64,000 bases of DNA from Arenicola marina (Eukaryota > Annelida > Polychaeta > Arenicolidae): positions 558,001-622,000 of the forward strand of contig OZ025264.1 in assembly GCA_964019135.1 (NCBI GenBank), read 5' to 3'. The notes under the pieces were generated by a model that did no database searches, was not told the DNA's origin, and saw only the letters and a program-made list of their open reading frames with translations. Positions 10,787 to 59,600 of the stretch are shown here, piece by piece. How positions within the stretch are numbered: position 1 is the first letter of the stretch; the number at the start of each line of letters is the position of its first letter. A program made the translations under genes and the position numbers.

Positions 10787-10799
10787 GTGCACGGGAGGA

Positions 10800-11670: not shown

Positions 11671-11675
11671 TACAG

Positions 11676-12840: not shown

Positions 12841-12844
12841 CTCA

Positions 12845-13010: not shown

Positions 13011-13019
13011 CCCTTGCCC

Positions 13020-14200: not shown

Positions 14201-14204
14201 GGGT

Positions 14205-14575: not shown

Positions 14576-15151
14576 AGTGGATAAAAAGGTAATGGGGAGG
14601 GGAGGAGGGTGGGGAGGAGAAGATAGCGAAAAAGGGGGGTGCTTGGGGGGAGGTAGTTGTTCTGGGCAAGGGGAGGGGGAGGGGTAGATCGAGTCACTGA
14701 CGTCTGGAGGTGCCAGAGGGACGGAACCAGATCCACAGCGCTGCAAAATGACGAGCACTTTGGGTGGAGTGACGAATGAGGGCGGGTGGGGGGAGAGACG
14801 TCTGTGTGGAGGTCACAAGGTACCATCTGTGGTGGTCTTCTGAAACACGATGGTAATGTGTGGGCGAGAGTCCAAACTGACAACCACGGCTAGAAGTGGG
14901 AAGCGTAACTTCACCCTCCTCCGCCCCCTCCCGACCACCCTAACCATGCGCACTCCTCGTGTATCTGTAGGACAGCATCTGGAGCGGCGTCTCAGCAAAA
15001 GTAACTTCTTTTGGCGGTTCCCGGGAAGGAGAGTGAGAGGGTGGGGGTGGGGGTGCCCAGGGGACGCGTTCCCTCTAAACGGTCGCCCATTAAATGAACC
15101 GCCCATCCCCCCCTCCCCCCCCTATTAAGTGACTCGCCCCGCCCGCCTTTA

Positions 15152-31107: not shown

Positions 31108-31225
31108 TTATGCCTGTTCCTTAAAGTGATATTGTGGATCCTTGGAATCCATAACAGCGGCCACTCCATTCAACTCCACGTCTCTGTCAATCATCTCGAT
31201 TAGGACGTCAGCTACCCACTCTGGC
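31108..31225 (-). CDS. HPGD-like: Gene A exon 7 (terminal)
   Basis: 118 nt from acceptor ATTGCAG|GCCAG to TAA at 31108-31110. It encodes PEWVADVLIEMIDRDVELNG, then VAAVMDSKDPQYHFKEQA. Its first 22 nt are the first unit of a 48-bp tandem array lying in the upstream intron. Confidence 0.92.
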
Positions 31226-34200
31226 CTGCAATGTTAAATAGTGACCATTACGACGTCAACAACACACTCCGGTCTGCAATGTTAAATAATGTCCATTATG
31301 ACATCAGCCACCCACTCCGGCCTGCAATGTTAAATAATGTCCATTATGACGTCAGCTACCCACTCTGGCCTGCAACGTTAAATAGTGTCTATTACGACTT
31401 CAGCAACACGCTCCGGTCAGCAATGTTAAATAATGTCCATTATGACGTCAGCCACCCACTCCGACCTGCAATGTTAAATAATGTCCATTATGACATCAGC
31501 CACCCACTCTGGCCTGCAACGTTAAATAGTGTCTATTACGACTTCAGCAACACGCTCCGGTCAGCAATGTTAAATAATGTCCATTATGACGTCAGCCACC
31601 CACTCCGACCTGCAATGTTAAATAATGTCCATTATGACGTCAGCCACCCACTCCGACCTGCAATGTTAAATAATGTCCATTATGACGTCAGCCACCCACT
31701 CCGACCTGCAATGTTAAATAATGTCCATTATGACGTCAGCCACCCACTCTGGCCTAACGCAACGTTAAATAATGTCCAATTATGGGCTAATTAGGAAGCT
31801 AGCAATCAACTCCAGAGCTGGTGTGCAATATCGATCTTGGTCAACATCACTTGTCTAACCTATGAGTCTCACATTGAATCAGTAGCTATTGCAATAAAAT
31901 GTATAGATAGTCTAGTAGGAATAGAAGTATTTTCATTCTCCGAAGATTAGAAAGATAACATACTTGATGATTTCTGACTTGGCCCTTCTGTTCTCAATGA
32001 AGGCCTTGTACTCGTGGTAGAACTCGACACTCTCCTCGGTCAGACACTCTGTGATCATATCCGTATCCACGACGGCGGGACACAGAGACATCATCCGGAC
32101 TCCGTGCTTGGCAAACTGCATCCCCGTCTGTAGTAACCGCAACAACAGCATGACGTCACAATGGACTCATATTCCGTTTTCGATTGTCCGAACGAAAAGG
32201 AGAAAACAAGAGTTGTTGGTCTTCCGATATGGTTATTATTCACAATAAATATATTAAAGTCACTTAATGCATACTTCTATTGTTTCTCCGGAGTCGTTGT
32301 TTTGCCGGTAAGGACCTGTGGACCATTCGCCTTATTCACGGAATCGCCATATTGACGCCAAAACGAGGCTGTGCCTGCAAACACAATTTACGTGACTCGC
32401 CCAACGCGTAAAATCTAATGGGAGACACTGCTGCGGGTTCGCTGCGAAATAGCTCCCGGGTGATTTCAGTAATAAAATGACCGATTTCAGGCAGATAAAA
32501 TGGGTGTGTGTGTTCTGGAGCAAGTACATGTGAAAAAGGAGGGTCTTTTGAGGCGAGTATATCTGAAAAAAGTGGGGTATTTCCCGCGGCATGCAGCAAG
32601 GGTCAAGTGAAAGCCCCCCTATATTTTTTAACTCGCTTTCTACGTCAGCTAGGATCTTTGTGCTGTGACATATTAGTCTATGGACCTACTATTGTTTTTG
32701 CTGTTATTATGAGTATTTTTTATTGTATTGAGTGAATCCTATGACCCGGACATTCTTTGCCTACTACTCATGATAACTCATGATAGACCCACGTGAAATG
32801 GCACGATAGGCCTATAGATCTAGCCTTACAAGTGACAGGCTGAAGATGCCGTTAAACTCAAATCAAACCACGTGAAAACTTGTGCACACAAGCGTTGTTG
32901 AACCCCGTGTTTTACCCGGTATTGTATGATCGGAGCATGGTGAGATATTACGCTGGGTATATGGAGTTATGCTGACATATTTTATCTCACGAAGGAACCA
33001 ATGTGGCAATAATTCTACCCTCCCCCCGCCCCCGCCATGCACGTATTGATTGACTGTGCCTGTGCCGTTGCATGAACTAATCGGTCTAATCTTCAAAGAG
33101 TGATCACCACTTTTATGTGAGAATGTGGTTGTTGCACGAAATGCAGGGAAAAAAATAATTGCACCCCTCGAGAATTGAACGCACGACCGCACTATCAAAA
33201 GGGAAGCGCTCTACCGACTGAGCTACACGGTCTTCGACGTTACGCAATGCGTTTCAGTGAATCATATTGTACCTCCAGCAACCATTCCCTGCAAAGTTTG
33301 TAATAAAAACACCATTAACGTTTGATTTAATTTGCCGTTAACTTTCCAATGGACAAATCAACCTATGGACCTTAGCTATCTTCCACTAAGCAGATAAGCT
33401 CTGTTGAAGTGATAGCATCCCACTGCTGGTCGGGGATACCCCCCAGCTGGAGGGGGTCACCCGTTCCGTGTGGCATAGGCCTACACGTTCGGCTATTGTC
33501 AAATGTGCTCGAAAAAGATTAACATTTGCAGAAATAGGTCTTATTTGTTAATTAGTTTGAACAATAATGACCTAACAGACTTAATAGTGACCATTGATGG
33601 CAGGAGAGAAAGGCCCTTGTGCCACTCACCAGGGCCACACATCATACGCACTAGCCATTCGCGCGCAAACTTGCAGGTATAGCTTCGTTCTCGCGAGGGA
33701 ATTCCCAACATGTGAATAAGGCGAATGAGCAGGAGGTCATTATTTTCTCAGAACGGGTCATTATAGTTCCGTCACAATACTGACCCCTTGCTCACATACT
33801 CCAAACAATAGAAATACGCATTAAGCCAGATAAGGAATGAGTTGTAGATCTGTATGTATTAGATAAGGAATGAGTTGTAGGTCATTATTGGGATCGAAGA
33901 ACTTCGAGGCGTAGCCGAGAAGTTGTGAGATCCCAATAATGACCTACAACTCATTCCTTATATGGCTTAATGCCTACTTCTATCGTTTCCTCCGAAGAGG
34001 CGGCGATGGCATGGAGTGTGTGAGCGAGGGGTCATTATTGTGACGGAACTATAATGATCCGCTCTGAGAAAATAATGACCTCCTGCTCATGGCAAAACAC
34101 GACTCCGAGGAAACAATAGAAGTATGCATTAAATCCCATTAATGCATACTTCTATTGTTTCCTCTGAGTCGTCTTTTGCCGGTAAGGACCTGCGGACCGT

Positions 34201-37200
34201 GAGCAGGAGGTCATCATTGTACCAGAGCGGGTCATTATAGTTCCGTCACGATAATGACCCCTCGCTGACATACTCCATGCCATCGCCGCCTCCTCGGAGG
34301 AAACAATAGAAGTATGCATTAAGCCAGATAAGGAATGAGTTGTAGGTCATTATTAGGATCTCGCAACTTCTCGGCTACGCCTCGAAGTTCTTCGATCCCA
34401 ATAATGACCTACAACTCATTCCTTATCTAATACATAAGGACCTACAACTCATTCCTTATCTAATACCCCTCAACTTCTCGGCTACGCTACGCCTCGAAGT
34501 TCTTCGATCCTAATAAGGACCTACAACTCATTCCTTATCTAATACATATCTAGTTTTGTTGCTATTTTTGAATGTCGATTTTGCGCATAAGAACTCAGTC
34601 AGCAGGTGATCAAAAGCGGGAACTGAAATTAGGCTCTTCCACAGCCCCACCTCCGAGCGCTCCATGTGCCAATCTGAGGGAGCGTCTACTGAGGTTTACT
34701 TAGCGGTCGCCCGGCATTTCTCGACCGTCCGACACATCCATCAAGCTTTTAATTGCTACTAGCACCCATTTAGACACCCATGTTGGTGCACCTGTTGCAA
34801 CGATCATTCCGGAGTGTACGTCTGACATTATTGATAGACGTGTTCGATCATTGGAGGGGTAATAAAATGTTACAATGGCTTACAATTAATTAACACCTTG
34901 ATTTTCATTTATTGATGAAGCCTGCATCTTTGTATAAACAACAAAGCCACATCAAAGCAGACGACAATAAGCTTGTAGTGCAAATACTTCTATTCTGAGG
35001 TTCCCATGAATCTCTCATTGTCTGCGCATAGGAACTTCCATGTGATGCTATATATTTGACTTACACTCATCACCCGTGTGTAGTGGACGACTGCTGCCTT
35101 GGAGGCAGAGTAAACTGGCGCCCAGGACCCGCGAGTGCTCACACCTGGAAAACAATACAGTATATATTGATCAACTCATCAATCGTGGGTTCTTTCAAGT
35201 GATTGCAGGGGCAGAGGAATTCAGTTTAATGAAGGGTTGTACGTTTGAGCCCTGAACAATGTTGTTTGTTTCGGTTTATGGATAGAAACCATTTCTCGGA
35301 GTGACCTGCAACACGTGGTCCTCCTGTAGTATTTCTGGTCCCAGGCCCGAATGGACGCCGAAAGTTCTACCCGCAGAGGCGGGTTTCGAACCGGCGACCT
35401 TTCGCATCCCGAGCGAACACCTTACACGTTAGGCCAAAGGGAAATTCCCATTTGGCCCGAGGCGCTTGGTGTCTTTCATCCACCGGGCCTGGGCCGAGAT
35501 ATCACACTCCCAGCGGTCATGAAGAAAACACTGTTAGCCTAATCTGTGTGAATATACGACTAAAATCGGAACATTAGTTCACGTACATATCGTGACGACG
35601 ACAACACATTGACGAAATCTTCATAATGGGTAGGGAACCAGCCAATCCACAGAGCTGGGGTGCGTTGCATATGGGTGTCGACCGTGTGCGCACGCCATCG
35701 GCAACGACTAATAAGGATTTGATCTTGGCGGATTGGTCAAGGACGCGTACAATTTTGAACCGGAAGTGGGGTATGGTTCGCCGCGATCAAGAGCAGTCCC
35801 GCATGATAATATTAAACTCTGGACGACGATTTTTCTCAAATAAGTGAGGATAACCCGTAAATATCGATGCTTTATAGTTATCTTTTATTTAGATTGTGCG
35901 GCTATTTCCAAAGTAAGGACATTTATTTAGTAGATATCCCCGCAACAAATGGAAATAGTTCGATGTGACCAATGTTGTTGCATAGCGAGCTCCGAGTGAC
36001 CAAAAACGTTCGCGGCGGTCGAGCGTGCTCCGCAACTCAACCCAGACTTGCTGGCCTGAACCGGGAACCAGCCAGTTCAGTGAACAGGCTTGCTAGTTTG
36101 GGCCGGGAACCAGCCAGTCCATAGACTAGGCTAGCCACTCTCTGACAGAGGGCCCTCGTTAAAGCTTCAAGAGTGAGTTGTGCAACCGCCCTCTGCTGGG
36201 AGAGTGTGACATAATAGCTTTGGGCCGGGAGCCAGCCTACTCGGCTACCGCAACTGGGTCTGTAAGTGACGTCACAGACAGCGCGCGCTCACCTCTAGAA
36301 ACAACCATTCTGTATGACTTAACTAAACAAGGCTGGGAGTTACCTGCGATGGACCCTGTGTTCACGATGACTCCTCCCTTTCCTCCGACCGACTTGCTCA
36401 TGACCTCCAGGGCTTGCTTCGTTGACTCGATTATGGTCGTCTGCAGAGAAACAAAAAACACTAAGGAAATCTAAATATTGTCATCGATACAAACGCCCGG
36501 AATTTGTTTCCACAGGTTCATCCGTAGTAAATAATCGTATAATGGGTCATGATTTGGTGTATGTAGGTGGGGGAAGCGGGGTGCGATTGTTCACATAGAA
36601 GTATCAAGAATATATGTTGACCTTCACTCACCCCCCTCCAGCTCTCTTTTTTTATAATAATATATATTTATCATATATATTTATAATTTTTTACAAAACG
36701 TATATGTAATTGGCGGAGCTAAACTGCGTCATCCACGTCTATATGTTCACATAGAATAAATAGACTCTCAAAGTTATTATTACGGGTAAATTCTGAAGAG
36801 ACCATTCAAGGGAATGCAGAGGTTCAAGAAGGTTTGTCAACAGATAAAACGTGGGAAAGGGCATTTTGCGGATGCGGAATCTGCCCGTCAGCCAAATGTA
36901 TTCCGTTCATGTGAACTACGTCAAGTTAACTACTCTATGTCTCATTACACGCAATATCCTTGCATCCCAAAGAGTATGGTGTACAAACATAATATAATTA
37001 AACTGTGCATGATTCACGTGTGAACACCAATTACTCACAATGTTGACGTCCAGCGTGTTCCTCCATTGGCCCTCGTGCGCCGTGCCCACGTGGTTGATGA
37101 CAACATCCGGGACTCTCCACATCGCCATCACCCCACTGTACACAGCTGGGACGGGAAAATGGCACGATGTTCATCTGTGACAGTAACTGATGATTTACTG

Positions 37201-40200
37201 GCGCGACCATTTTCATATATTGCGCCTGACCTGCCTCTCACACACCACATAATAATATATGCCAGAACAACAAAGAAAGCCGTGAATATGTGTATCACTA
37301 ACGCTAAAAACTTCAAATAAAAGAACTGTTTGCAACGTTGAAACGTATTTATAGGGGGTAGTCGATTATCGGTCATCATTGTACGATCGGTTTTTAGCCC
37401 AGCATTGTAAATGAAAAAATCGGCGACTAGCTTTTCTTGTTTCATCAGAGTCAGAACATTTTTTTCAGAAAACGTCAGAACGTTTTTATTTTCCTGTTTC
37501 ATTTCAATCTGTGATAAACAGTGTTTTTGAACCATACATGCTTGTAATTCTTTCCTCCATCAAACTAGCTTCGGTCATGTGGTATTCCAACACACGAGAC
37601 GCCCAAATAAATACAGCTTATACAATAAACGAAAATAAGAGCCTTTGGGCTCACTCGCAGTGATGGATCTTACCTTTAACCTCGTCCGGTTTAGTTGCAT
37701 CGCACTTCTGGAAGTAGACTCTGTCGGCGCCGAACTGAGCACTGAGGTCGGTGTGTGTCTGGCGACCCTCGTGCTCCTTGATGTCACAGAAATACACCTA
37801 CAAACACACACAGACCCATATAAAGGCGACCTTCGTGCTCCCTGATGTCACATAAATACAACTACAAACACACACAGACCCATCTCAAAGCAACCCTCGT
37901 GCTCCCTGATGTCACAGAAATACACCTACAAACACACACAGACCCATCTCAAGGCGACCCTCGCGCTCCCTGATGTCACATAAAAACTCCTACAAACACA
38001 CACAGACCCATCTCAAGGCGACCCTCGTGCTCCTTGATGTCACAGAAATACACCTACAAACACACACACCCCCATCTAAAGGCGACCCTCGGGCTCCCTG
38101 ATGTCACATAAATACACCTACAAACACACACAGACCCATCTAAAGGCGACCCTCGGGCTCCTTGATGTCACATGAATACACCTACAAACACACACAGACC
38201 CATCTAAAGGCGACCCACGGGCTCCCTGATGTCACAGAAATACACCTACAAACACACACAGACCCATCTCAAGGCGACCCTCGTGCTCCCTGATGTCACC
38301 GAAAGACTCCTACAAACACACACAGACCCATCTAAAGGCGACCCTCGGGCTCCCTGATGTCACATAAATACACCTACAAACACACACAGACCCATCTCAA
38401 GGCGACCCTCGTGCTCCTTGATGTCACATAAATACGCCTACAAACACACACAGACCCATCTAAAGGCGACCCTCGTGCTCCCTGATGTCACATAAATACA
38501 CCTACAAACACACACAGACCCATCTCAAGGCGACCCTCGTGCTCCCTGATGTCACAGAAATACACCTACAAACACACACAGACCCATCTAAAGGCGACCC
38601 TCGTGCTCTATGATGTCACATAAATACACCTACAAACACACACAGACCCATCTAAAGGCGACCCTCGTGCTCCCTGATGTCACAGAAATACACCTACAAA
38701 CACACACAGACCCATCTCAAGGCGACCCTCGTGCTCCCTGATGTCACAGAAATACACCTACAAACACACACAGACCCATCTCAAGGCGACCCTCGTGCTC
38801 CTTGATGTCACATAAATACACCTACAAACACACACAGACCCATCTAAAGGCGACCCTCGTGCTACCTGATGTCACATAAATACACCTACAAACACACACA
38901 GACCCATCTAAAGGCGACTTTCGGGCTCCCTGATGTCACATAAATACACCTACAAACACACACAGACCCATCTCAAGGCGACCCTCGTGCTCCTTGATGT
39001 CACATAAATACACCTACAAACACACACAGACCTATCTCAAGGCGACCCTCGTGCTCCCTGATGTCACAGAAATACACCTACAAACACACACAGACCTATC
39101 TCAAGGCGACCCTCGTGCTCCCTGATGTCACAGAAATACACCTACAAACACACACAGACCTATCTCAAGGCGACCCTCGTGCTCCCTGATGTCACAGAAA
39201 TACACCTACAAACACACACAGACCCATCTCAAGGCGACCCTCGTGCTCCCTGATGTCACAGAAATACACCTACAAACACACACAGACCCATCTCAAGGCG
39301 ACCCTCGTGCTCCCTGATGTCACATAAATACACCTACAAACACACACAGACCCATCTAAAGGCGACCCTCGTGCTACCTGATGTCACATAAATACACCTA
39401 CAAACACACACAGACCCATCTAAAGGCGACTTTCGGGCTCCTTGATGTCACATAAATACACCTACAAATAACACACACAGACCTATCTCAAGGCGACCCT
39501 CGTGCTCCCTGATGTCACATAAATACACCTACAAACACACACAGACCTATCTCAAGGCGACCCTCGTGCTCCCTGATGTCACATAAATACACCTACAAAC
39601 ACACACAGACCTATCTCAGGGCGACCCTCGTGCTCCCTGATGTTACATAAATACACCTGCAAATAACACACAGACCCATCTCAAGGCGACCCTCGTGCTC
39701 CCTGATGTCACTGAAATACACCTACAAACACACACAGACCCATCTCAAGGCGACCCTCGTGCTCCCTGATGTCACTGAAATACACCTACAAACACACACA
39801 GACCCATCTCAAGGCGACCTTCGTGCTCCCTGATGTCACAGAAATACACCTACAAATAACACACAGACCCATCTCAAGGCGACCCTCGTGCTCCTTGATG
39901 TCACTGAAATACACCTACAAACACACACAGACCCATCTCAAGGCGACCCTCGTGCTCCTTGATGTCACTGAAATACACCTACAAACACACACAGACCCAT
40001 CTCAAGGCGACCCTCGTGCTCCTTGATGTCACATAAATACACCTACAAACACACACAGACCCATCTCAAGGCGACCCTCGTGCTCCCTGATGTCACAGAA
40101 ATACACCTACAAATAACACACAGACCCATCTCAAAGCGACCTTCGTGCTCCCTGATGTCACAGAAATACACCTACAAATAACACACACAGACCCATCTCA

Positions 40201-43200
40201 AGGCGACCCTCGTGCTCCTTGATGTCACAGAAATACTCCTACAAACACACACAGACCCATCTCAAGGCGACCCTCGTGCTCCCTGATGTCACAGAAATAC
40301 ACCTACAAATAACACACAGACCCATCTCAAGGCGACCTTCGTGCTCCTTGATGTCACATAAATACACCTACAAATAACACACAGACCCATCTCAAGGCGA
40401 CCCTCGTGCTCCCTGATGTCACAGAAATACACCTACAAACACACACAGACCCATCTCAAGGCGACCCTCGGGCTCCCTGATGTCACATAAATACACCTAC
40501 AAACACACACAGACCCATCTCAAGGCGACCCTCGTGCTCCCTGATGTCACTGAAATACACCTACAAACACACACAGACCCATCTCAAGGCGACCCTCGTG
40601 CTCCCTGATGTCACAGAAATACACCTACAAACACACACAGACCCATCTAAAGGCGACCCTCGTGCTCCCTGATGTCACAGAAATACACCTACAAACACAC
40701 ACAGACCCATCTAAAGGCGACCCTCGTGCTCCCTGATGTCACATAAATACACCTACAAACACACACAGACCCATCTCAAGGCGACCCTCGTGCTCCCTGA
40801 TGTCACAGAAATACACCTACAAACACACACAGACCCATCTCAAGGCGACCCTCGTGCTCCTTGATGTCACATAAATACACCTACAAACACACACAGACCC
40901 ATCTCAAGGCGACCCTCGTGCTCCCTGATGTCACATAAATACACCTACAAACACACACAGACCCATCTCAAGGCGACCCTCGGGCTCCCTGATGTCACAT
41001 AAATACACCTACAAACACACACAGACCCATCTCAAGGCGACCCTCGTGCTCCCTGATGTCACTGAAATACACCTACAAACACACACAGACCCATCTCAAG
41101 GCGACCCTCGTGCTCCCTGATGTCACAGAAATACACCTACAAACACACACAGACCCATCTAAAGGCGACCCTCGTGCTCCCTGATGTCACAGAAATACAC
41201 CTACAAACACACACAGACCCATCTAAAGGCGACCCTCGTGCTCCCTGATGTCACATAAATACACCTACAAACACACACAGACCCATCTCAAGGCGACCCT
41301 CGTGCTCCCTGATGTCACAGAAATACACCTACAAACACACACAGACCCATCTCAAGGCGACCCACGGGCTCCCTGATGTCACAGAAATACACCTACAAAC
41401 ACACACAGACCCATCTCAAGGCGACCCTCGTGCTCCCTGATGTCACCGAAAGACTCCTACAAACACACACAGACCCATCTAAAGGCGACCCTCGGGCTCC
41501 CTGATGTCACATAAATACACCTACAAACACACACAGACCCATCTCAAGGCGACCCTCGTGCTCCTTGATGTCACATAAATACGCCTACAAACACACACAG
41601 ACCCATCTAAAGGCGACCCTCGTGCTCCCTGATGTCACATAAATACACCTACAAACACACACAGACCCATCTCAAGGCGACCCTCGTGCTCCCTGATGTC
41701 ACAGAAATACACCTACAAACACACACAGACCCATCTAAAGGCGACCCTCGTGCTCTATGATGTCACATAAATACACCTACAAACACACACAGACCCATCT
41801 AAAGGCGACCCTCGTGCTCCCTGATGTCACAGAAATACACCTACAAACACACACAGACCCATCTCAAGGCGACCCTCGTGCTCCCTGATGTCACAGAAAT
41901 ACACCTACAAACACACACAGACCCATCTCAAGGCGACCCTCGTGCTCCTTGATGTCACATAAATACACCTACAAACACACACAGACCCATCTAAAGGCGA
42001 CCCTCGTGCTACCTGATGTCACATAAATACACCTACAAACACACACAGACCCATCTAAAGGCGACTTTCGGGCTCCTTGATGTCACATAAATACACCTAC
42101 AAATAACACACACAGACCTATCTCAAGGCGACCCTCGTGCTCCTTGATGTCACATAAATACACCTACAAACACACACAGACCTATCTCAAGGCGACCCTC
42201 GTGCTCCCTGATGTCACAGAAATACACCTACAAACACACACAGACCTATCTCAAGGCGACCCTCGTGCTCCCTGATGTCACAGAAATACACCTACAAACA
42301 CACACAGACCTATCTCAAGGCGACCCTCGTGCTCCCTGATGTCACAGAAATACACCTACAAACACACACAGACCCATCTCAAGGCGACCCTCGTGCTCCC
42401 TGATGTCACAGAAATACACCTACAAACACACACAGACCCATCTCAAGGCGACCCTCGTGCTCCCTGATGTCACAGAAATACACCTACAAACACACACAGA
42501 CCCATCTAAAGGCGACCCTCGTGCTACCTGATGTCACATAAATACACCTACAAACACACACAGACCCATCTAAAGGCGACTTTCGGGCTCCTTGATGTCA
42601 CATAAATACACCTACAAATAACACACACAGACCTATCTCAAGGCGACCCTCGTGCTCCCTGATGTCACATAAATACACCTACAAACACACACAGACCTAT
42701 CTCAGGGCGACCCTCGTGCTCCCTGATGTTACATAAATACACCTGCAAATAACACACAGACCCATCTCAAGGCGACCCTCGTGCTCCCTGATGTCACTGA
42801 AATACACCTACAAACACACACAGACCCATCTCAAGGCGACCCTCGTGCTCCCTGATGTCACTGAAATACACCTACAAACACACACAGACCCATCTCAAGG
42901 CGACCTTCGTGCTCCCTGATGTCACAGAAATACACCTACAAATAACACACAGACCCATCTCAAGGCGACCCTCGTGCTCCTTGATGTCACTGAAATACAC
43001 CTACAAACACACACAGACCCATCTCAAGGCGACCCTCGTGCTCCTTGATGTCACTGAAATACACCTACAAACACACACAGACCCATCTCAAGGCGACCCT
43101 CGTGCTCCTTGATGTCACATAAATACACCTACAAACACACACAGACCCATCTCAAGGCGACCCTCGTGCTCCCTGATGTCACAGAAATACACCTACAAAC

Positions 43201-46200
43201 ACACACAGACCCATCTAAAGGCGACCCTCGTGCTCCCTGATGTTACATAAATACACCTACAAATAACACACAGACCCATCTCAAAGCGACCTTCGTGCTC
43301 CCTGATGTCACAGAAATACACCTACAAATAACACACAGACCCATCTAAAGGCGACCCTCGTGCTCCCTGATGTTACATAAATACACCTACAAATAACACA
43401 CACAGACCCATCTCAAAGCGACCTTCGTGCTCCCTGATGTCACAGAAATACACCTACAAATAACACACACAGACCCATCTCAAGGCGACCCTCGTGCTCC
43501 TTGATGTCACAGAAATACTCCTACAAACACACACAGACCCATCTCAAGGCGACCCTCGTGCTCCCTGATGTCACAGAAATACACCTACAAATAACACACA
43601 GACCCATCTCAAGGCGACCTTCGTGCTCCTTGATGTCACATAAATACACCTACAAATAACACACAGACCCATCTCAAGGCGACCCTCGTGCTCCCTGATG
43701 TCACAGAAATACACCTACAAACACACACAGACCCATCTCAAGGCGACCCTCGGGCTCCCTGATGTCACATAAATACACCTACAAACACACACAGACCCAT
43801 CTCAAGGCGACCCTCGTGCTCCCTGATGTCACTGAAATACACCTACAAACACACACAGACCCATCTCAAGGCGACCCTCGTGCTCCCTGATGTCACAGAA
43901 ATACACCTACAAACACACACAGACCCATCTAAAGGCGACCCTCGTGCTCCCTGATGTCACAGAAATACACCTACAAACACACACAGACCCATCTAAAGGC
44001 GACCCTCGTGCTCCCTGATGTCACATAAATACACCTACAAACACACACAGACCCATCTCAAGGCGACCCTCGTGCTCCCTGATGTCACAGAAATACACCT
44101 ACAAACACACACAGACCCATCTCAAGGCGACCCTCGTGCTCCTTGATGTCACATAAATACACCTACAAACACACACAGACCCATCTCAAGGCGACCCTCG
44201 TGCTCCCTGATGTCACATAAATACACCTACAAACACACACAGACCCATCTCAAGGCGACCCTCGGGCTCCCTGATGTCACATAAATACACCTACAAACAC
44301 ACACAGACCCATCTCAAGGCGACCCTCGTGCTCCCTGATGTCACTGAAATACACCTACAAACACACACAGACCCATCTCAAGGCGACCCTCGTGCTCCCT
44401 GATGTCACAGAAATACACCTACAAACACACACAGACCCATCTAAAGGCGACCCTCGTGCTCCCTGATGTCACAGAAATACACCTACAAACACACACAGAC
44501 CCATCTAAAGGCGACCCTCGTGCTCCCTGATGTCACATAAATACACCTACAAACACACACAGACCCATCTCAAGGCGACCCTCGTGCTCCCTGATGTCAC
44601 AGAAATACACCTACAAACACACACAGACCCATCTCAAGGCGACCCTCGTGCTCCTTGATGTCACATAAATACACCTACAAACACACACAGACCCATCTCA
44701 AGGCGACCCTCGTGCTCCCTGATGTCACATAAATACACCTACAAACACACACAGACCCATCTCAAGGCGACCCTCGTGCTCCCTGATGTCACAGAAATAC
44801 ACCTACAAACACACACAGACCCATCTCAAGGCGACCCTCGTGCTCCTTGATGTCACATAAATACACCTACAAACACACACAGACCCATCTAAAGGCGACC
44901 CTCGTGCTACCTGATGTCACATAAATACACCTACAAACACACACAGACCCATCTAAAGGCGACTTTCGGGCTCCTTGATGTCACATAAATACACCTACAA
45001 ATAACACACACAGACCTATCTCAAGGCGACCCTCGTGCTCCCTGATGTCACATAAATACACCTACAAACACACACAGACCTATCTCAGGGCGACCCTCGT
45101 GCTCCCTGATGTTACATAAATACACCTGCAAATAACACACAGACCCATCTCAAGGCGACCCTCGTGCTCCCTGATGTCACTGAAATACACCTACAAACAC
45201 ACACAGACCCATCTCAAGGCGACCCTCGTGCTCCCTGATGTCACTGAAATACACCTACAAACACACACAGACCCATCTCAAGGCGACCTTCGTGCTCCCT
45301 GATGTCACAGAAATACACCTACAAATAACACACAGACCCATCTCAAGGCGACCCTCGTGCTCCTTGATGTCACTGAAATACACCTACAAACACACACAGA
45401 CCCATCTCAAGGCGACCCTCGTGCTCCTTGATGTCACTGAAATACACCTACAAACACACACAGACCCATCTCAAGGCGACCCTCGTGCTCCTTGATGTCA
45501 CATAAATACACCTACAAACACACACAGACCCATCTCAAGGCGACCCTCGTGCTCCTTGATGTCACATAAATACACCTACAAACACACACAGACCCATCTC
45601 AAGGCGACCCTCGTGCTCCTTGATGTCACAGAAATACACCTACAAATAACACACAGACCCATCTCAAGGCGACCCTCGTGCTCCTTGATGTCACTGAAAT
45701 ACACCTACAAACACACACAGACCCATCTCAAGGCGACCCTCGTGCTCCTTGATGTCACTGAAATACACCTACAAACACACACAGACCCATCTCAAGGCGA
45801 CCCTCGTGCTCCTTGATGTCACATAAATACACCTACAAACACACACAGACCCATCTCAAGGCGACCCTCGTGCTCCTTGATGTCACAGAAATACACCTAC
45901 AAACACACACAGACCCATCTCAAGGCGACCCTCGTGCTCCTTGATGTCACATAAATACACCTACAAACACACACAGACCCATCTCAAGGCGACCCTCGTG
46001 CTCCTTGATGTCACAGAAATACACCTACAAATAACACACAGACCCATCTCAAGGCGACCCTCGTGCTCCCTGATGTCACAGAAATACACCTACAAACACA
46101 CACAGACCCATCTAAAGGCGACCCTCGTGCTCCCTGATGTCACAGAAATACACCTACAAACACACACAGACCCATCTAAAGGCGACCCTCGTGCTCCCTG

Positions 46201-49200
46201 ATGTCACAGAAATACACCTACAAACACACACAGACCCATCTCAAGGCGACTTTCGGGCTCCCTGATGTCACATAAATACACCTACAAATAACACACAGAC
46301 CCATCTCAAGGCGACCCTCGTGCTCCCTGATGTCACAGAAATACTCCTACAAACACACACAGACCCATCTCAAGGCGACCCTCGTGCTCCCTGATGTCAC
46401 AGAAATACACCTACAAACACACACAGACCCATCTCAAGGCGACCCTCGTGCTCCCTGATGTCACATAAATACACCTACAAACACACACAGACCCATCTCA
46501 AGGCGACCCTCGTGCTCCTTGATGTCACTGAAATACACCTACAAACACACACAGACCCATCTCAAGGCGACCCTCGGGCTCCCTGATGTCACAGAAATAC
46601 ACCTACAAACACACACAGACCCATCTCAAGGCGACTTTCGGGCTCCCTGATGTCACATAAATACACCTACAAATAACACACAGACCCATCTCAAGGCAAC
46701 CCTCGGGCTCCCTGATGTCACAGAAATACACCTACAAACACACACAGACCCATCTCAAGGCGACTTTCGGGCTCCCTGATGTCACATAAATACACCTACA
46801 AATAACACACAGACCCATCTCAAGGCGACCCTCGGGCTCCCTGATGTCACAGAAATACACCTACAAACACACACAGACCCATCTCAAGGCGACTTTCGGG
46901 CTCCCTGATGTCACAGAAATACACCTACAAACACACACAGACCCATCTCAAGGCGACTTTCGGGCTCCCTGATGTCACATAAATACACCTACAAATAACA
47001 CACAGACCCATCTCAAGGCGACCCTCGTGCTCCCTGATGTCACTGAAATACTCCTACAAACACACACAGACCCATCTCAAGGCGACCCTCGTGCTCCTTG
47101 ATGTCACTGAAATACACCTACAAACACACACAGACCCATCTCAAGGCGACCCTCGTGCTCCCTGATGTCACAGAAATACAACTACAAACACACACAGACC
47201 CATCTCAAGGCGACCCTCGTGCTCCCTGATGTCACAGAAATACACCTACAAACACACACAGACCCATCTAAAGGCGACCCTCGTGCTCCCTGATGTCACA
47301 GAAATACACCTACAAACACACACAGACCCATCTCAAGGCGACCCTCGTGCTCCTTGATGTCACATAAATACACCTACAAACACACACAGACCCATCTAAA
47401 GGCGACATTCGGGCTCCCTGATGTCACAGAAATACACCTACAAACACACACAGACCCATCTCAAGGCGACCCTCGTGCTCCCTGATGTCACAGAAATACA
47501 CCTACAAACACACACAGACCCATCTCAAGGCGACCCTCGTGCTCCCTGATGTCACAGAAATACACCTACAAACACACACAGACCCATCTAAAGGCGACCC
47601 TCGTGCTCCCTGATGTCACAGAAATACACCTACAAACACACACAGACCCATCTCAAGGCGACCCTCGTGCTCCTTGATGTCACATAAATACACCTACAAA
47701 CACACACAGACCCATCTAAAGGCGACATTCGGGCTCCCTGATGTCACAGAAATACACCTACAAACACACACAGACCCATCTCAAGGCGACCCTCGTGCTC
47801 CCTGATGTCACATAAATACACCTACAAACACACACAGACCCATCTAAAGGCGACCCTCGTGCTCCTTGATGTCACATAAATACACCTACAAACACACACA
47901 GACCCATCTCAAGGCGACCCTCGTGCTCCCTGATGTCACTGAAATACACCTACAAACACACACAGACCCATCTAAAGGCGACCTTCGGGCTCCCCGATGT
48001 CACAGAAATACCCCTACAAACACACACAGACCCATCTCAAGGCGACTTTCGGGCTCCCTGATGTCACATAAATACACCTACAAATAACACACAGACCCAT
48101 CTCAAGGCGACCCTCGTGCTCCCTGATGTCACTGAAATACTCCTACAAACACACACAGACCCATCTCAAGGCGACCCTCGTGCTCCTTGATGTCACTGAA
48201 ATACACCTACAAACACACACAGACCCATCTCAAGGCGACCCTCGTGCTCCTTGATGTCACTGAAATACACCTACAAACACACACAGACCCATCTCAAGGC
48301 GACCCTCGTGCTCCCTGATGTCACAGAAATACACCTACAAACACACACAGACCCATCTCAAGGCGACCCTCGTGCTCCTTGATGTCACTGAAATACACCT
48401 ACAAACACACACAGACCCATCTCAAGGCGACCCTCGTGCTCCTTGATGTCACTGAAATACACCTACAAACACACACAGACCCATCTCAAGGCGACCTTCG
48501 GGCTCCCTGATGTCACAGAAATACACCTACAAACACACACAGACCCATCTCAAGGCGACCCTCGTGCTCCCTGATGTCACAGAAATACACCTACAAACAC
48601 ACACAGACCCATCTAAAGGCGACCCTCGTGCTCCCTGATGTCACAGAAATACACCTACAAACACACACAGACCCATCTCAATGCGACCCTCGTGCTCCTT
48701 GATGTCACATAAATACACCTACAAACACACACAGACCCATCTAAAGGCGACATTCGGGCTCCCTGATGTCACAGAAATACACCTACAAACACACACAGAC
48801 CCATCTCAAGGCGACCCTCGTGCTCCCTGATGTCACAGAAATACACCTACAAACACACACAGACCCATCTCAAGGCGACCCTCGTGCTCCCTGATGTCAC
48901 TGAAATACACCTACAAACACACACAGACCCATCTCAAGGCGACCCTCGTGCTCCTTGATGTCACTGAAATACACCTACAAACACACACAGACCCATCTAA
49001 AGGCGACCCTCGTGCTCCTTGATGTCACATAAATACACCTACAAACACACACAGACCCATCTAAAGGCGACTTTCGGGCTCCGTGATGTCACATAAATAC
49101 ACCTACAAACACACACAGACCCATCTCAAGGCGACCCTCGTGCTCCCTGATGTCACTGAAATACACCTACAAACACACACAGACCCATCTCAAGGCGACC

Positions 49201-52200
49201 CTCGTGCTCCCTGATGTCACAGAAATACGCCTACAAACACACACAGACCCATCTCAAGGCGACCCTCGTGCTCCCTGATGTCACATAAATACACCTACAA
49301 ACACACACAGACCCATCTCAAGGCGACCCTCGTGCTCCCTGATGTCACAGAAATACACCTACAAACACACACAGACCCATCTCAAGGCGACCCTCGTGCT
49401 CCCTGATGTCACAGAAATACACCTACAAACACACACAGACCCATCTCAAGGCGACCCTCGTGCTCCTTGATGTCACAGAAATACACCTACAAACACACAC
49501 AGACCCATCTCAAGGCGACCCTCGTGCTCCTTGATGTCACTGAAATACACCTACAAACACACACAGACCCATCTCAAGGCGACCTTCGTGCTCCCTGATG
49601 TCACAGAAATACACCTACAAACACACACAGACCTATCTCAAGGCGACCCTCGTGCTCCCTGATGTCACTGAAATACACCTACAAACACACACAGACCCAT
49701 CTCAAGGCGACCCTCGTGCTCCCTGATGTCACAGAAATACACCTACAAACACACACAGACCCATCTAAAGGCGACCCTCGTGCTCCCTGATGTCACAGAA
49801 ATACACCTACAAACACACACAGACCCATCTAAAGGCGACCCTCGTGCTCCTTGATGTCACAGAAATACTCCTACAAACACACACAGACCCATCTCAAAGC
49901 GACCCTCGTGCTCCTTGATGTCACAGAAATACACCTACAAACACACACAGACCCATCTCAAGGCGACCCTCGTGCTCCTTGATGTCACATAAATACACCT
50001 ACAAATAACACACAGACCCATCTAAAGGCGACCCTCGTGCTCCCTGATGTCACAGAAATACACCTACAAACACACACAGACCTATCTCAAGGCGACCCTC
50101 GTGCTCCTTGATGTCACAAAAATACACCTACAAACACACACAGACCCATCTCAAGGCGACCTTCGGGCTCCTTGATGTCACATAAATACACCTACAAATA
50201 ACACACACAGACCTATCTCAAGGCGACCCTCGTGCTCCCTGATGTCACAGAAATACACCTACAAACACACACAGACCTATCTCAAGGCGACCCTCGTGCT
50301 CCCTGATGTCACAGAAATACACCTACAAACACACACAGACCCATCTAAAGGCGACCCTCGTGCTCCCTGATGTCACAGAAATACACCTACAAACACACAC
50401 AGACCCATCTAAAGGCGACCCTCGTGCTCCTTGATGTCACAGAAATACACCTAAAAACAGCCACAGACCCATCTCAAAGCGACCCTCGTGCTCCCTGATG
50501 TCACAGAAATACACCTACAAACACACACAGATCCATCTCAAGGCGACCCTCGTGCTCCTAGATGTCACAGAAATACTCCTACAAACACACACAGACCCAT
50601 CTCAAGGCGACCCTCGTGCTCCCTGATGTCACATAAATACACCTACAAACACACACAGACCCATCTCAAGGCGCCCCTCGTGCTCCCTGATGTCACAGAA
50701 ATACTCCTACAAACACACACAGACCCATCTCAAAGCGACCCTCGTGCTCCCTGATGTCACATAAATACACCTACAAACACACACAGACCCATCTAAAGGC
50801 GACCCTCGTGCTCCTTGATGTCACAGAAATACACATACAAACACACACAGACCCATCTCAAGGCGACCCTCGTGCTCCCTGATGTCACAGAAATACTCCT
50901 ACAAACACACACAGACCCATCTCAAGGCGACCTTCGGGCTCCCTGATGTCACAGAAATACTCCTACAAACACACACAGACCCATCTCAAAGCGACCCTCG
51001 TGCTCCTTGATGTCACAGAAATACACCTACAAACACACACAGACCCATCTCAAGGCGACCCTCGTGCTCCTTGATGTCACATAAATACACCTACAAACAC
51101 ACACAGACCCATCTAAAGGCGACCCTCGTGCTCCCTGATGTCACAGAAATACACCTACAAACACACACACCCCCATCTAAAGGCGACCCTCGGGCTCCCT
51201 GATGTCACTGAAATACTCCTACAAACACACACAGACCCATCTCAAAGCGACCCTCGTGCTCCTTGATGTCACAGAAATACACCTACAAACACACACAGAC
51301 CAATCTAAAGGCGACCCTCGGGCTCCCTGATGTCACTGAAATACACCTACAAACAACACAGACCCATCTCAAAGCGACCCTCGGGCTCCCTGATGTCACA
51401 GAGATACACCTACAAACACACACAGACCCATCTCAAAGCGACCCTCGTGCTCCCTGATGTCACAGAAATACACCTACAAACACACACAGACCCATTTAAA
51501 GGCGACCCTCGGGCTCCCTGATGTCACAGAAATACACCTACAAACACACACAGACCCATCTAAAGGCGACCCTCGTGCTCCCTGATGTCACAGAAATACT
51601 CCTACAAACACACACAGACCCATTTAAAGGCGACCCTCGGGCTCCCTGATGTCACAGAAATACACCTACAAACACACACAGACCCATCTAAAGGCGACCC
51701 TCGTGCTCCCTGATGTCACAGAAATACTCCTACAAACACACACAGACCCATCTCAAAGCGACCCTCGGGCTCCCTGATGTCACAGAAATACATCTACAAA
51801 CACACACAGACCCATCTCATGGCGACCCTCGTGCTCCCTGATGTCACAGAAATACTCCTACAATCACACGCAGACCCATCTCAAGGCGACCCTCGGGCGC
51901 CCTGATGTCACAGAAATACACCTACAAACACACACAGACCCATCTCAAGGCGACCCTCGTGCTCCCTGATGTCACAGAAATACACCTACAAACACACACA
52001 GGCCCATCTCAAGGCGACCCTCGGGCTCCCTGATGTCACATAAATACACCTACAAACACACACAGACCCATCTCAAGGCGACCCTCGTGCTCCCTGATGT
52101 CACAGAAATACACCTACAAACACACACAGACCCATCTCAAGGCGACCCTCGTGCTCCCTGATGTCACAGAAATACACCTACAAACACACACAGACCCATC

Positions 52201-53530
52201 TCAAGGCGACCCTCGTGCTCCCTGATGTCACAGAAATACACCTACAAACACACACAGACCCATCTCAAGGCGACCCTCGTGCTCCCTGATGTCACAGAGA
52301 TACTCCTACAAACACACACAGACCCATCTCAAGGCGACCCTCGTGCTCCCTGATGTCACAGAGATACTCCTACAAACACACGCAGACCCATCTCAAGGCG
52401 ACCCTCGGGCGCCCTGATGTCACAGAAATACACCTACAAACACACACAGACCCATCTCAAGGCGACCCTCGTGCTCCCTGATGTCACAGAAATACACCTA
52501 CAAACACACACAGGCCCATCTCAAGGCGACCCTCGGGCTCCCTGATGTCACATAAATACACCTACAAACACACACAGACCCATCTCAAGGCGACCCTCGT
52601 GCTCCCTGATGTCACAGAAATACACCTACAAACACACACAGACCCATCTCAAGGCGACCCTCGTGCTCCCTGATGTCACAGAAATACACCTACAAACACA
52701 CACAGACCCATCTCAAGGCGACCCTCGTGCTCCCTGATGTCACAGAAATACACCTACAAACACACACAGACCCATCTCAAGGCGACCCTCGTGCTCCCTG
52801 ATGTCACAGAGATACTCCTACAAACACACACAGACCCATCTCAAGGCGACCCTCGTGCTCCCTGATGTCACAGAGATACTCCTACAAACACACACAGACC
52901 CATCTCAAGGCGACCCTCGTGCTCCCTGATGTCACAGAAATACACCTACAAACACACACAGACCCATCTCAAGGCGACCCTCGTGCTCCCTGATGTCACA
53001 GAAATACACCTACAAACACACACAGACCCATCTCAAGGCGACCCTCGTGCTCCCTGATGTCACAGAAATACACCTACAAACACACACAGACCCATCTCAA
53101 GGCGACCCTCGTGCTCCCTGATGTCACAGAGATACTCCTACAAACACACACAGACCCATCTCAAGGCGACCGTCGTGCTCGTTTATAATTAATGTATATT
53201 TCACCAATATTTGATAATCGTTTTTTTTTCCATCAATATGTTGTTGTTACTTTGACTGTACTATAGGCCAGAGGCCTGAAGTAATACAGCTATCAATGAT
53301 TAACTATTATCTAAATAAAGTTCATGAACACAAAATCCCGCCCAGCTCTATTTCATTGTAACCAGAAGGTTTCGAGGCACAGCTCACTTTTGTCCACACA
53401 CAAGTGGTCTAAAACCCCAATGTGATAAGGCCGTTACCTTGGCCCCCTGGTCCAGCAGCGCTGTGCAGAAGGCGCGCCCCATCCCGCGGGCTCCACCAAA
53501 CACCACCACGACACTCCCAGACAGCTTCAT
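31108..53530 (-). CDS. HPGD-like: Gene A: HPGD-like short-chain dehydrogenase/reductase, 7 exons
   Basis: The coding exons, in transcript order, are 53438-53530, 37674-37797, 37039-37145, 36344-36440, 35065-35144, 31964-32127 and 31108-31225. They total 783 nt, or 260 residues plus TAA, all with GT-AG introns and consistent phases (0,1,0,1,0,2). The protein fits a cytosolic NAD(H) oxidoreductase of the classical SDR family, closest by eye to 15-hydroxyprostaglandin dehydrogenase (human 266 residues). Seen: N-terminal nucleotide loop FGGARGMG (residues about 10-17), acidic NAD-type residue in YFCDI, PDVVINHVG, VNTGSIAG (catalytic Ser), PVYSASK (catalytic Tyr-x3-Lys) and CPAVVDTDM. Odd points: NNAG is replaced by NHVG, and the Gln three residues before the catalytic Tyr (HPGD Gln148) is Ala. 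Intron 1 is 15.6 kb and almost wholly minisatellite. Divergently oriented to gene B, its 73% identical paralogue. The family is secure; the substrate is not. Confidence 0.9.
31204..31792. repeat. 48-bp minisatellite spanning the exon 7 acceptor of gene A, about 12 units
   Basis: CTGCAATG recurs at 31226, 31274 and 31322, then as CTGCAACG at 31370: a 48-bp period. On the minus strand each unit contains ACATTGCAG followed by a copy of the first 22 nt of exon 7 (GTGGGTGGCTGACGTC), plus 26 nt of intron. Only the lowest-coordinate unit continues into real coding sequence. Many units also carry the palindrome TGACGTCA. The last units near 31750-31790 are degenerate. Confidence 0.95.
31964..32127 (-). 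CDS. HPGD-like: Gene A exon 6
   Basis: 164 nt between acceptor CTACAG|ACGGGG and donor ATCAA|GTATGT. It encodes TGMQFAKHGVRMMSLCPAVV and continues through DTDMITECLTEE to NRRAKSEIIK. CPAVV stands where most family members have CPG. It ends in phase 2. Confidence 0.92.
32262..32350. repeat. Fragment of the fold-back repeat family
   Basis: TTAATGCATACTTCTATTGT, TTTTGCCGGTAAGGACCTG and a nearby GTGGACC match parts of the larger palindromic cluster at 33728-34550. It lies in intron 5 of gene A and is isolated from the main cluster by about 1.4 kb. Confidence 0.7.
33160..33232 (-). repeat. tRNA-like SINE head or tRNA pseudogene
   Basis: The minus strand starts GACCGTGTAGCTCAGTCGGT with AGAGCG next, a very good tRNA D-arm and A-box. 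GTGCGTTCAATTCTC lies at the B-box position. The acceptor strands do not pair and the T-stem is broken, so it is not a working tRNA. Located in intron 5 of gene A. Confidence 0.55.
33728..34550. repeat. Fold-back (palindromic) element cluster
   Basis: Arms of about 165 bp (33728-33895 and 33929-34091) are inverted copies around a 33-nt centre. The innermost 33 bp (33863-33895 versus 33929-33961) pair perfectly. A second hairpin with 42-bp arms follows (34091-34132 and 34139-34180; one mismatch seen). A third copy of the same arm plus centre occupies about 34200-34550. Located in intron 5 of gene A; no protein is encoded. Confidence 0.88.
35065..35144 (-). CDS. HPGD-like: Gene A exon 5
   Basis: 80 nt between acceptor TTTTCCAG|GTGTG and donor ATGAGT|GTAAGT. 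It encodes GVSTRGSWAPVYSASKAAVV and HYTRVMS, and carries the catalytic Tyr and Lys (YSASK). The Ala before Pro-Val-Tyr replaces the Gln expected in HPGD. Confidence 0.92.
35374..35441 (-). repeat. tRNA-derived SINE head
   Basis: The minus strand reads TGGCCTAACGTGTAAGGTGT, then TTCGC-TCGGGAT-GCGAA (a perfect anticodon-like stem and seven-base loop) and CCGGTTCGAAACC (B-box). The acceptor stem is absent and the T-stem imperfect. It lies in intron 4 of gene A, upstream of exon 5 in genomic coordinates. Confidence 0.5.
36344..36440 (-). CDS. HPGD-like: Gene A exon 4
   Basis: 97 nt between acceptor CTCTGCAG|ACG and donor GCAG|GTAACT. It encodes IIESTKQALEVMSKSVGGKG and GVIVNTGSIA; the Ser of GSIAG aligns with the catalytic Ser. 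It ends in phase 1. Confidence 0.92.
36640..36700. repeat. A/T-rich simple sequence in gene A intron 3
   Basis: A short run of TATATTTATCATATATATTT-type sequence. It lies about 200 bp upstream (in transcript sense) of exon 4 and has no further recognisable structure. Confidence 0.5.
37039..37145 (-). CDS. HPGD-like: Gene A exon 3
   Basis: 107 nt between acceptor CGTCCCAG|CT and donor AACATT|GTGAGT. It encodes AVYSGVMAMWRVPDVVINHV and GTAHEGQWRNTLDVNI. The classical SDR NNAG tetrapeptide is NHVG here. The FG pair preserved in gene B (SLFGVPD) is WR in this copy. Confidence 0.92.
37674..37797 (-). CDS. HPGD-like: Gene A exon 2
   Basis: 124 nt from acceptor TTGTAG|GTGTATTTC to donor AAAG|GTAAGA. 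It encodes VYFCDIKEHEGRQ at the start and QKCDATKPDEVK at the end. The acidic residue in YFCDI is the usual mark of NAD rather than NADP preference. Its first 37 nt form unit 1 of the 64-bp array that fills the upstream intron. 30 of 41 residues match gene B. Confidence 0.93.
37760..53181. repeat. 64-bp minisatellite spanning the exon 2 acceptor of gene A, about 240 units (15.4 kb)
   Basis: The period is 64 bp (for example GGCGACC at 52141 and 52205), with 65-67 bp variants where AAACAC becomes AAATAACAC. On the minus strand every unit holds TGTGTTTGTAG|GTGTATTT, that is, the intron 1 acceptor plus a copy of the first 37 nt of exon 2, then 27 nt of intron-like sequence. Unit 1 is the real exon start at 37797. 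Since 64 is not divisible by 3 the array is not openly coding. Higher-order copies are visible: blocks recur at +3147/+3086, +2383 and +512 bp. The array fills about 98% of intron 1 and stops about 256 bp from exon 1. Confidence 0.97.
53438..53530 (-). CDS. HPGD-like: Gene A exon 1
   Basis: Thirty-one codons from ATG (53530) to AAG|GTAACG. It begins MKLSGSVVVVFGGARGMGRA and holds the first beta strand and the nucleotide-binding Gly loop. It ends in phase 0. The start is chosen because gene B begins at the equivalent codon; 26 of 31 residues match gene B exon 1. Confidence 0.92.
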
Positions 53531-56609: not shown

Positions 56610-59600
56610 GTAAGAGAACGATATGTGAGATATATATATCTGTGAGATACGCAGATAAATACAAAATATATATTTATTTTTAATCGAATTGATTTTTGAC
56701 ATTCCGTCGACGTTATTCCAGTGTGTGCATGTGTAGTGTGGATCGCTGACGGTGGCCTACCTGGGTTCGAATATTGACACATGTATGGTATAGGTAACTT
56801 ATATGTTAGACAGATAAACAGTTCATTAACAATAAATACTACGAAACAACCCACCGATATCGTACTGTACCTGAGGGGCATGGTCTCATCTCATCCCACC
56901 ACCAAGAGCTCCATTGGCCCCAATATCCCATTTAGGGCGACACGACGATTTTTTAAATCGACAATGCGACATTGGGGCTGCCTCAAAATCAACATGCCAC
57001 CTAAGACTCAGCAACACGCGACATAAATATCTTCTGAAAATCGACATGCGATATGGCTACCCTCAGGGGTCCTTCATTGGGCCAACGATATGGCTACCCT
57101 CAGGGGTCCTTCATTGGGCCAACGACATGGCTACCCTCAGGGGTCCTTCATTGGGCCAACGATATGGCTACCCTCAGGGGTCCTTCATTGGGCCAACGAT
57201 ATGGCTACCCTCAGGGGTCCTTCATTGGGCCAACGATATGGCTACCCTCAGGGGTCCTTCATTGGGCCAACGATATGGCTACCCTCAGGGGTCCTTCATT
57301 GGGCCAACGATATGGCTACCCTCAGGGGTCCTTCATTGGGCCAACGATATGGCTACCCTCAGGGGTCCTTCATTGGGCCAACGATATGGCTACCCTCAGG
57401 GGTCCTTCATTGGGCCAACGATATGGCTACCCTCAGGGGTCCTTCATTGGGCCAACGATATGGCTACCCTCAGGGGTCCTTCATTGGGCCAACGATATGG
57501 CTACCCTCAGGGGTCCTTCATTGGGCCAACGATATGGCTACCCTCAGGGGTCCTTCATTGGGACAACGATATGGCTACCCTCAGGGGTCCTTCATTGGGC
57601 CAACGATATGGCTACCCTCAGGGGTCCTTCATTGGGACAACGATTCATGCACGTCGTTCCTTCCTTCCATTATAGGTGTATTTCTGTGACATTCGAGAGC
57701 CTGAAGGACAGCAAACACAGACGGAGCTGGCTACGGAGTTCGGTGCTGACCACGTCCGCTTCAAAAAGTGTGACGCAACCAAACCGGATGAAGTAAAAGG
57801 TAAGACAAACACGACAAATTTCTGATTACTGCTCATTTCATCCGGAGTCAAAATTAATTTTAACTTTTCAGAAATTCACTAGGAGAATATACGTTTAAAT
57901 GATTGCTTCGTTTTAACTATGTATTCTTTAATGACTGTTGATTTAGTCGTGCATTCTTTAATGATTGTTGATTTTGGCTGTGTATTCTGTAACTGTTTTT
58001 TTTTTGCGTTTATTCTTTAATGGTTGTTGGTTTAGCCGTAAATTAACTAATGGTTCTTGGTTTTAGCCGTGTTTTCTTTAATGATTGTTTGGTTTAGCCG
58101 TGTATTCAATGGCTTTTGGTTTTAACCGTGCATACTTTAATGCTGTGGTTTGGCTTGCAGTTTATTCCTATTATGGTTATTGGTTTTAGCCGTCTATTAA
58201 CTTGTTTAGTTTTAGCCGTGTATCCTTTAATGGTTGTTCATTTTAGCCGTGTGTTCTTTAATGGTTGTTTGGTTTTAGCCGTGCAATCTTTAATGGTTGT
58301 TGGTTTTAGCCGTGTATACTGGCGTGAAGTCCCTGTTCGGTGTCCCAGATGTCGTTGTTAACCACGTGGGTATCATGCACGAGGGTCAGTGGAGGCTGGT
58401 GCTGGACGTCAACATTGTGAGTTCTCACAAATTAACCCTAATTCCAGTTTTCTCATAAATACGCAAATTTCGGTTACACCGTGTCATTATTATGGCTAAA
58501 ATATAGCTTTGCAATCTATAGTATATGCGTTACTAGAGTTTGAAATGCTAGAAATAAGATATGGTATTATCACATCAATGATGCAATATGGTGCAACATA
58601 AACAAAATGGCTACTTTATTCCTAGTCTAAAGATGTCACTACTTAGACAAGCAAAATAAGATGAAAGACAATGGTTGAACCTAAACTGAACGATACTCGC
58701 TTTGCAATCTGGTCGAAGCATCGAACATGTGACACGATATGAAACTGATTGACAAAAAACAAGCATTTGATCTATATCTTACAATGCAGGCGCTAATAAT
58801 TCAAATTTTATCCAGCAAACTGTGATAGAGTCCACCAGACAGGCTCTGGAGTACATGAGCAAGTCCGTCGGTGGTAAAGGAGGCGTTATTTTTAACACGG
58901 CATCCATTGCAGGTAAGCATATAAACAAAATCCCTTAAAGGCTATCTGCAGAACTGCATTTGGCCGAGTCATCACTTTTGTGTGAATTATACATACCAGA
59001 AATGAAATGATTATTGTTTTAGCCAGCGGAGGGTTCACCTAGGCCAAAGAACCTAAGCGTATACATAGCAGAGTAATTTAGTACGGACATCATAATAGCG
59101 GCCTCAAGATCTTGATATAATGTTAGATATCTCGCGCATCTGTCTGTTACATGATTTTAATTCCTTTGCCCGTTTTGGACAATATGTGTACACAGGCGGC
59201 CTAAAATCACTTTATCCAATCAATATGCAGACCCGCAGGATATTTATAACGCATAATGACGTCATAGGGCAGCACACTTTTCACATACATAAAACAAAAG
59301 CAAACAACACGCAATGACGTCATAGCTGGGCAGGCGTTTTGGAGTAAAGAATACATTCTTGACACGTTCTCATACCATTATTATCCACAACCCGTGGATA
59401 TTTCAGCACATAGTTCAGCACAGCCCGTGGATATTTCAAGATTTCAGATTTCTCGACGTATTTGACCCGCTCTCATGACCCTGTTCTCCACACCCCGTGG
59501 ACATTTTCGGGTAGATTTCTCCAAATGTTTAATCTGCTCTCATGCCATTGTTATCCACATCCATGGATATATAAGGGCTGATTTCTCCGCATGTTTGACC

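Follow-up and report, generated by a model that had tools for sequence, protein, structure and literature searches.

Minisatellites that carry tandem copies of an exon-intron boundary have been described in amphioxus as 'mirage' minisatellites, in the Adh3 gene, in the globin genes BflGb6 and BflGb9, and in PGBD5 (PMC3087553, PMC3902484; available portions of both). The Adh3 data and the globin RT-PCR suggest, in the available portion of PMC3087553, that splicing is regular despite the mirages. Another known arrangement is the recursive splice site of very long fly introns, in which an acceptor and a donor are juxtaposed around AG/GT (PMC6110457, in its available portion). Here, I analyzed a stretch of 64,000 nucleotides (the window; C19:558001-622000) of the 867-Mb assembly of the polychaete Arenicola marina, in which the first intron of a dehydrogenase gene consists almost entirely of repeats of the 3′ splice site in which it ends. 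With a probability of roughly 60%, this array (array 1) is a neutral or near-neutral mirage minisatellite, and exon definition directs exon 1 to the last acceptor.

The gene in question (gene A) looks, from its sequence, like an intact HPGD-like short-chain dehydrogenase (SDR) gene. It has seven exons with a stop-free frame of 260 amino acids and GT-AG at six of six introns, and it is placed head-to-head with a paralogue (gene B). The positions below are those of the window.

53438-53530, minus strand: gene A exon 1, 93 nt, from ATG to CCAAG/gtaacg; equal length in genes B and C
37674-37797, minus strand: gene A exon 2, 124 nt, donor gt at 37673-37672; its first 37 nt are the truncated last unit of array 1
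37039-37145, minus strand: gene A exon 3
36344-36440, minus strand: gene A exon 4
35065-35144, minus strand: gene A exon 5
31964-32127, minus strand: gene A exon 6
31108-31225, minus strand: gene A exon 7, including the stop codon
56517-61081, plus strand: gene B, seven exons with lengths identical to those of gene A

A third paralogue, gene C (L031), lies just outside the window and has the exon lengths of gene A except for the last exon (112 vs 118 nt). The junction between the first two exons is homologous in genes B and C, and this favors 37797 as the genuine beginning of exon 2. The A and B proteins are identical at 191 of 260 residues, and the dN/dS values are 0.166 for A-B, 0.208 for A-C, and 0.178 for B-C. 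When gene C is taken as the outgroup, A has 19 residues of its own and B has 26; at 22 places, all three proteins differ. Since the dN/dS values are in the purifying range and there is no excess change in A, gene A evolves like a working gene. The view of the original prediction that the gene looks intact thus agrees with the 260-aa frame and with splice positions matching those of both paralogues.

Exons 1-2 of gene A match the Pfam family adh_short. Among solved structures, the best match is human 15-hydroxyprostaglandin dehydrogenase (8fd8, E 2.9e-41); the alignment covers residues 2-256 and includes the N, S, Y, and K of the SDR active site. The likeness to HPGD and to SDRs thus consists of the family match and the catalytic residues. 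The usual short-chain dehydrogenase motif is NNAG, whereas genes A, B, and C have NHVG in exon 3; dehydrogenase copies on contig C9 read NHAG at this place. A protein search with gene A gave 216 relatives; the 120 that were listed have at most 39% identity, and where the name gives an organism, it is bacterial. None of the best 25 of 204 NCBIfam models reaches its cut-off, and neither Rfam (at the gathering threshold) nor ARAGORN gave a match in the whole window.

Array 1 occupies nearly the whole of the first intron.

37761-53180, minus strand: array 1, period 64 bp, 240.2 copies, 95% matches
37798-37861, minus strand: last complete unit of array 1, with the true acceptor inside; the sole unit with T at position 42 (TTTATATGGG)

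Its unit combines 27 nt from the 3′ end of intron 1 with 37 nt from the 5′ end of exon 2, and is numbered here so that positions 1-37 are the exon 2 start and positions 38-64 the intron 1 end. The array accounts for 15,383 nt (98.4%) of the 15,640 nt of intron 1 (37798-53437). The original prediction had claimed that the 3′ splice site is repeated in tandem about 240 times over 15.4 kb, in an intron that is about 98% decoy acceptors, and both figures were reproduced. It had also claimed that every 64-bp unit has the same junction and 37 exon bases; the exon bases were found as described, but the units are less uniform than that. The acceptor is followed by GTGTAT in 211 of the 240 cases, by GAGTAT in 19, and by another sequence in 10, while 29 units have insertions (1 nt in 21 units and 3 nt in eight). 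The AG is intact at 239 of the 240 acceptor positions when the true one (37798) is counted, or at 238 of the 239 decoys. A 33-base piece of the unit has 80 matches in the 867-Mb genome, with every listed place within array 1, and its reversed-pattern control has none. As had been noticed at the outset, the unit nearest exon 2 is the only one whose acceptor leads into a full exon with a donor (exon 2, 37797-37674, and gt at 37673-37672). In summary, array 1 resembles a mirage in that the unit spans the exon-intron boundary and copies the splice site, and in that the terminal unit runs on into the real exon 2 of an intact gene.

Could the array be a product of the assembly? Array 1 is known from the assembly alone, and a second allele is missing there for comparison; a probe from intron 2/exon 3 of gene A matched only itself and gene B. 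However, when tiled with wraparound, the array falls into 241 units, of which the outermost two are partial, with as many as 79 distinct sequences; the longest run of identical units is 18 (1.15 kb), and long arrays are frequent in this genome. It is thus very unlikely that an assembler created array 1 or gave it a wrong size.

Arrays of the same kind, beyond the one originally noticed, were found at exon 7 of gene A and in both paralogues. The arrays at or near splice sites in genes A and B are as follows.

31199-31784, minus strand: array 2, 12.1 copies of 48 bp across the acceptor of gene A exon 7; AG in 10 of 12, the true one included
57898-58317, plus strand: array 3, 13.8 copies of 31 bp across the acceptor of gene B exon 3 (58309/58310); AG in 10 of 15, the true one included
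59445-59693, plus strand: 3.7 copies of 67 bp, ending exactly at the AG before gene B exon 5; no exon copied
57049-57644, plus strand: 16 copies of 37 bp inside gene B intron 1, clear of the acceptor (57675)

In gene C, a 58-bp array starts from the exon 6 donor and supplies five further GTAAGA donors and one ATAAGA, with little exon copied. Elsewhere in the genome, arrays of this kind were found in two of the 19 other SDR exons that were scored out of 320 candidates. At one locus (L069), the true donor GAG/GTCGGTATGG is followed by 27 decoy donors CAG/GTCGGTATGG, and at another (L058), a 115-bp duplication lies in two copies across an acceptor. A 32-bp array at a further locus (L066; C12:8228792-8229058) starts about 9 nt past the exon donor without exon copies; the exon match there sits in a reported open frame of 2418 codons. 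In the C9 dehydrogenase copies, the arrays flanking exon 3 on both sides copy no splice site, as judged by eye.

Array 1 may have started as a tandem duplication of 27 intron and 37 exon nucleotides at the boundary of intron 1 and exon 2. Ordinary minisatellite turnover in a minisatellite-rich annelid genome would then have raised it to about 240 copies, and the array would have been tolerated because a definable exon follows the last acceptor and no other. Does such an origin call for a mechanism that aims duplications at splice sites, for example at AG/GT proto-splice sites, so that the arrays are made there rather than met by chance? The seven intronic arrays of genes A, B, and C with at least three copies were each collapsed to one unit and dropped randomly in the shortened intron, the donor array of gene C being counted as crossing a splice site and the 67-bp array of gene B as not crossing. 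Four of the seven cross a splice site, while such random seeding in short introns expects 2.03 (P 0.10), and thus no boundary-seeking mechanism is needed. The observed four of seven speak for targeted duplication, as does the two-copy case of L058, which likewise has TAG/GT. On the other hand, donor as well as acceptor sides are affected, and AG/GT is absent from the true junction in array 2 as well as in array 3. Targeting is quite unlikely, and it was set aside as unnecessary.

The exon pieces in array 1 vary as if neutral, regardless of coding. Their variant types comprise four synonymous, 25 missense, and one stop, where 20, 83, and five, respectively, are possible. This pattern gives no support to a coding use of the units, and it is extremely unlikely that they serve as alternative in-frame cassette exons of 20 codons. 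It is true that 137 of the 239 units lack stops, have a length divisible by three, and terminate with a donor-like GTAGGT site. However, 57 of the 239 contain an in-frame stop, the variants look neutral, and the insert would probably repeat part of the nucleotide-binding fold. The donor-like TTT/GTAGGT of the consensus unit scores 4.1 with a home-made matrix; the 18 real donors on which this matrix is based, those of genes A, B, and C, have leave-one-out scores between 2.2 and 11.3. Since 4.1 lies inside this range, pseudo-exons are possible.

How might the last acceptor be chosen? The last 20 nt before the acceptor are common to 187 of the 240 array 1 acceptors, the true one included. Since the acceptors are too alike to explain the choice, and since a 124-nt exon with a good donor follows the last one alone, exon definition would be the simplest selector. 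Judging from the sequence, exon definition is the likeliest way in which the last acceptor is picked, and splicing probably uses the acceptor at 37798. A real donor and a complete exon are found downstream of only this acceptor, and exon 1 would be joined there. The decoys may also be weak, having a TG-rich pyrimidine tract and no yUnAy branch point. On paper, the exon start at 37797 is the only one to give 260 amino acids, and each of the 239 decoys, when joined and read through into exon 2, is predicted to meet a stop after 37-78 residues.

Those early stops at every decoy position, together with the close paralogues B and C that adjoin gene A, would fit a gene that is poorly spliced, with most of its transcripts degraded, and that survives by the backup of B and C or by tolerance of low output. 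This is doubtful, given the purifying selection, a protein change in A that is no faster than in B, and the intact exons and splice sites of gene A.

I also compared the acceptors for a branch point, defined as a TNAY motif that lies 15-45 nt upstream and is not followed by an AG farther than 9 nt beyond it; the AG-free requirement follows the AG exclusion zone described in the available portion of PMC1431707. Just one of the 240 array 1 acceptors passes this test, namely the true one, via the T at position 42, a contrast that is post hoc in that the change was noticed before the test and that the array units are not independent. Among the real acceptors of genes A and B, 11 of 12 pass, including the true site of array 1, while that of gene A exon 4 fails. 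The contrast depends on the motif: the looser TNA passes all 239 AG-intact acceptors of array 1, whereas the stricter TNAC and T[AG]AY pass none, the true one also failing. When U2 pairing is scored instead, three others among the 239 equal the true site, whose score then comes from a different adenine. In array 2, all ten AG-intact acceptors pass the TNAY test. In array 3, nine or ten of ten pass, or six of ten, the true one excluded, at a minimum distance of 18 nt. A branch-point rule was thus rejected as a general explanation, as arrays 2 and 3 show no contrast and the case is weaker under the U2-pairing score.

Exon 2 starts with GTGTAT, and therefore joining exon 1 to a unit would remake AAG/GTGTAT in 211 of the 240 cases. 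This junction might act as a new donor and be respliced downstream until exon 2 is reached; the decoys would then serve as ratchet points, and wrongly joined transcripts would be put right by the process itself. The juxtaposition of AG and GT is kept at the junction of the same 211 units, and the regenerated donor (AAGGTGTAT) scores 3.2, which is within the range of the real donors, near its bottom. However, the motif has neither the A at +4 nor the G at +5 of most donors here, and the intronic TAG/GTGTAT scores 0.2, far from the strong donor half of a recursive site. Moreover, the true exon 2 would bear the same donor, with a risk of skipping, and the true unit has AG/GC in array 2 and AG/CC in array 3. 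Such recursive re-splicing is unlikely. It is a long shot that the spliceosome steps down the array as on a ladder, some 210 decoys rebuilding the donor and the right mRNA resulting; from the sequence, stepwise splicing down array 1 is possible but not indicated.

The original prediction had regarded the size of array 1 as striking, which was overstated, since arrays of about 5 kb or longer are common here. The minisatellite share is 47% in a small sample of two contigs, namely eight random 5-kb pieces (L039-L046) that comprise the first four draws from C9 and the first four from C19. Three of the eight are wholly or almost wholly array, essentially one array each, and in this respect the size of array 1 is ordinary in this genome. 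Much of the genome size of 867 Mb may be owed to minisatellites.

The window itself contains a second giant array downstream of gene A (15154-28884; 304 copies of 45 bp, 13.7 kb), which is open in several frames over thousands of bases, with up to 2013 codons on the minus strand. Many more minisatellites are found at 1-15150, with units of 19, 15, 164/248, 30, and 38 bp. On C9, a related dehydrogenase gene exists as two similar inverted copies 1.39 Mb apart, L035/L036 (from C9:17196541) and L037/L038 (from C9:18592420), whose listed aligned pieces are 91-98% identical. The copy numbers of their arrays differ, being 6.8 vs 25.8 for a 45-bp unit and 9.6 vs 51.0 for a 20-bp unit. Thus, array length changes fast between similar gene copies.

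The host lineage was assessed with the mitochondrial contig C762 (15,942 bp), which carries COX1. At positions 5001-13000, with the genes named by eye from translations, the order on one strand is ND1, ND3, ND2, COX1, COX2, ATP8, COX3, ND6, CYTB, and then ATP6, with tRNAs I, K, S, N, D, Y, G, Q, and W between genes. By eye, and against conserved residues, the contig reads well with AAA as Lys, ATA as Met, and AGA as Ser. A GFP-family search gave no match, but its controls were equally silent, and this negative carries no weight. The gene order is of the annelid type (PMC2639372), and annelid mitochondrial genes are described as lying on one strand (PMC4505326, PMC4735579), according to the available portions of these papers. 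The host is therefore very probably an annelid and not an amphioxus, the latter having been ruled out by the mitochondrial code and the annelid gene order.

Array 1 places 239 near-identical competitor acceptors before one real acceptor in a gene under selection. It can thus reveal what the spliceosome uses beyond the acceptor sequence, be it exon definition, branch point, position, or re-splicing. The splice-site-copying minisatellites are extended here from lancelets to an annelid, in which several more were found; such arrays may arise generally as a by-product wherever a genome is rich in minisatellites, and they might supply new introns. No splice-site-copying array of an annelid was found among the matches listed from the available portions of the open-licence literature. 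Intron 1 of another annelid gene, earthworm metallothionein (PMC12783039), likewise contains a large minisatellite; its monomers average about 180 nt, and the available portion of the report does not mention splice-site copying. Fly recursive sites resemble 211 of the 240 array 1 units in having an acceptor directly followed by GT (AG/GT) in a long intron; in contrast, array 1 has a weak donor half and a tandem layout. The likeness to exon-boundary minisatellites of amphioxus that was drawn at the outset is apt, these being the mirages of PMC3087553 and PMC3902484. In the available portions of both papers, the mirages are likewise tandem copies of an exon-intron boundary, on the donor or the acceptor side, and many units of the globin mirages keep AG/GT. 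Those mirages belong to a cephalochordate and have, in these portions, two to seven copies, whereas array 1 belongs to an annelid and has about 240 copies over 15.4 kb.
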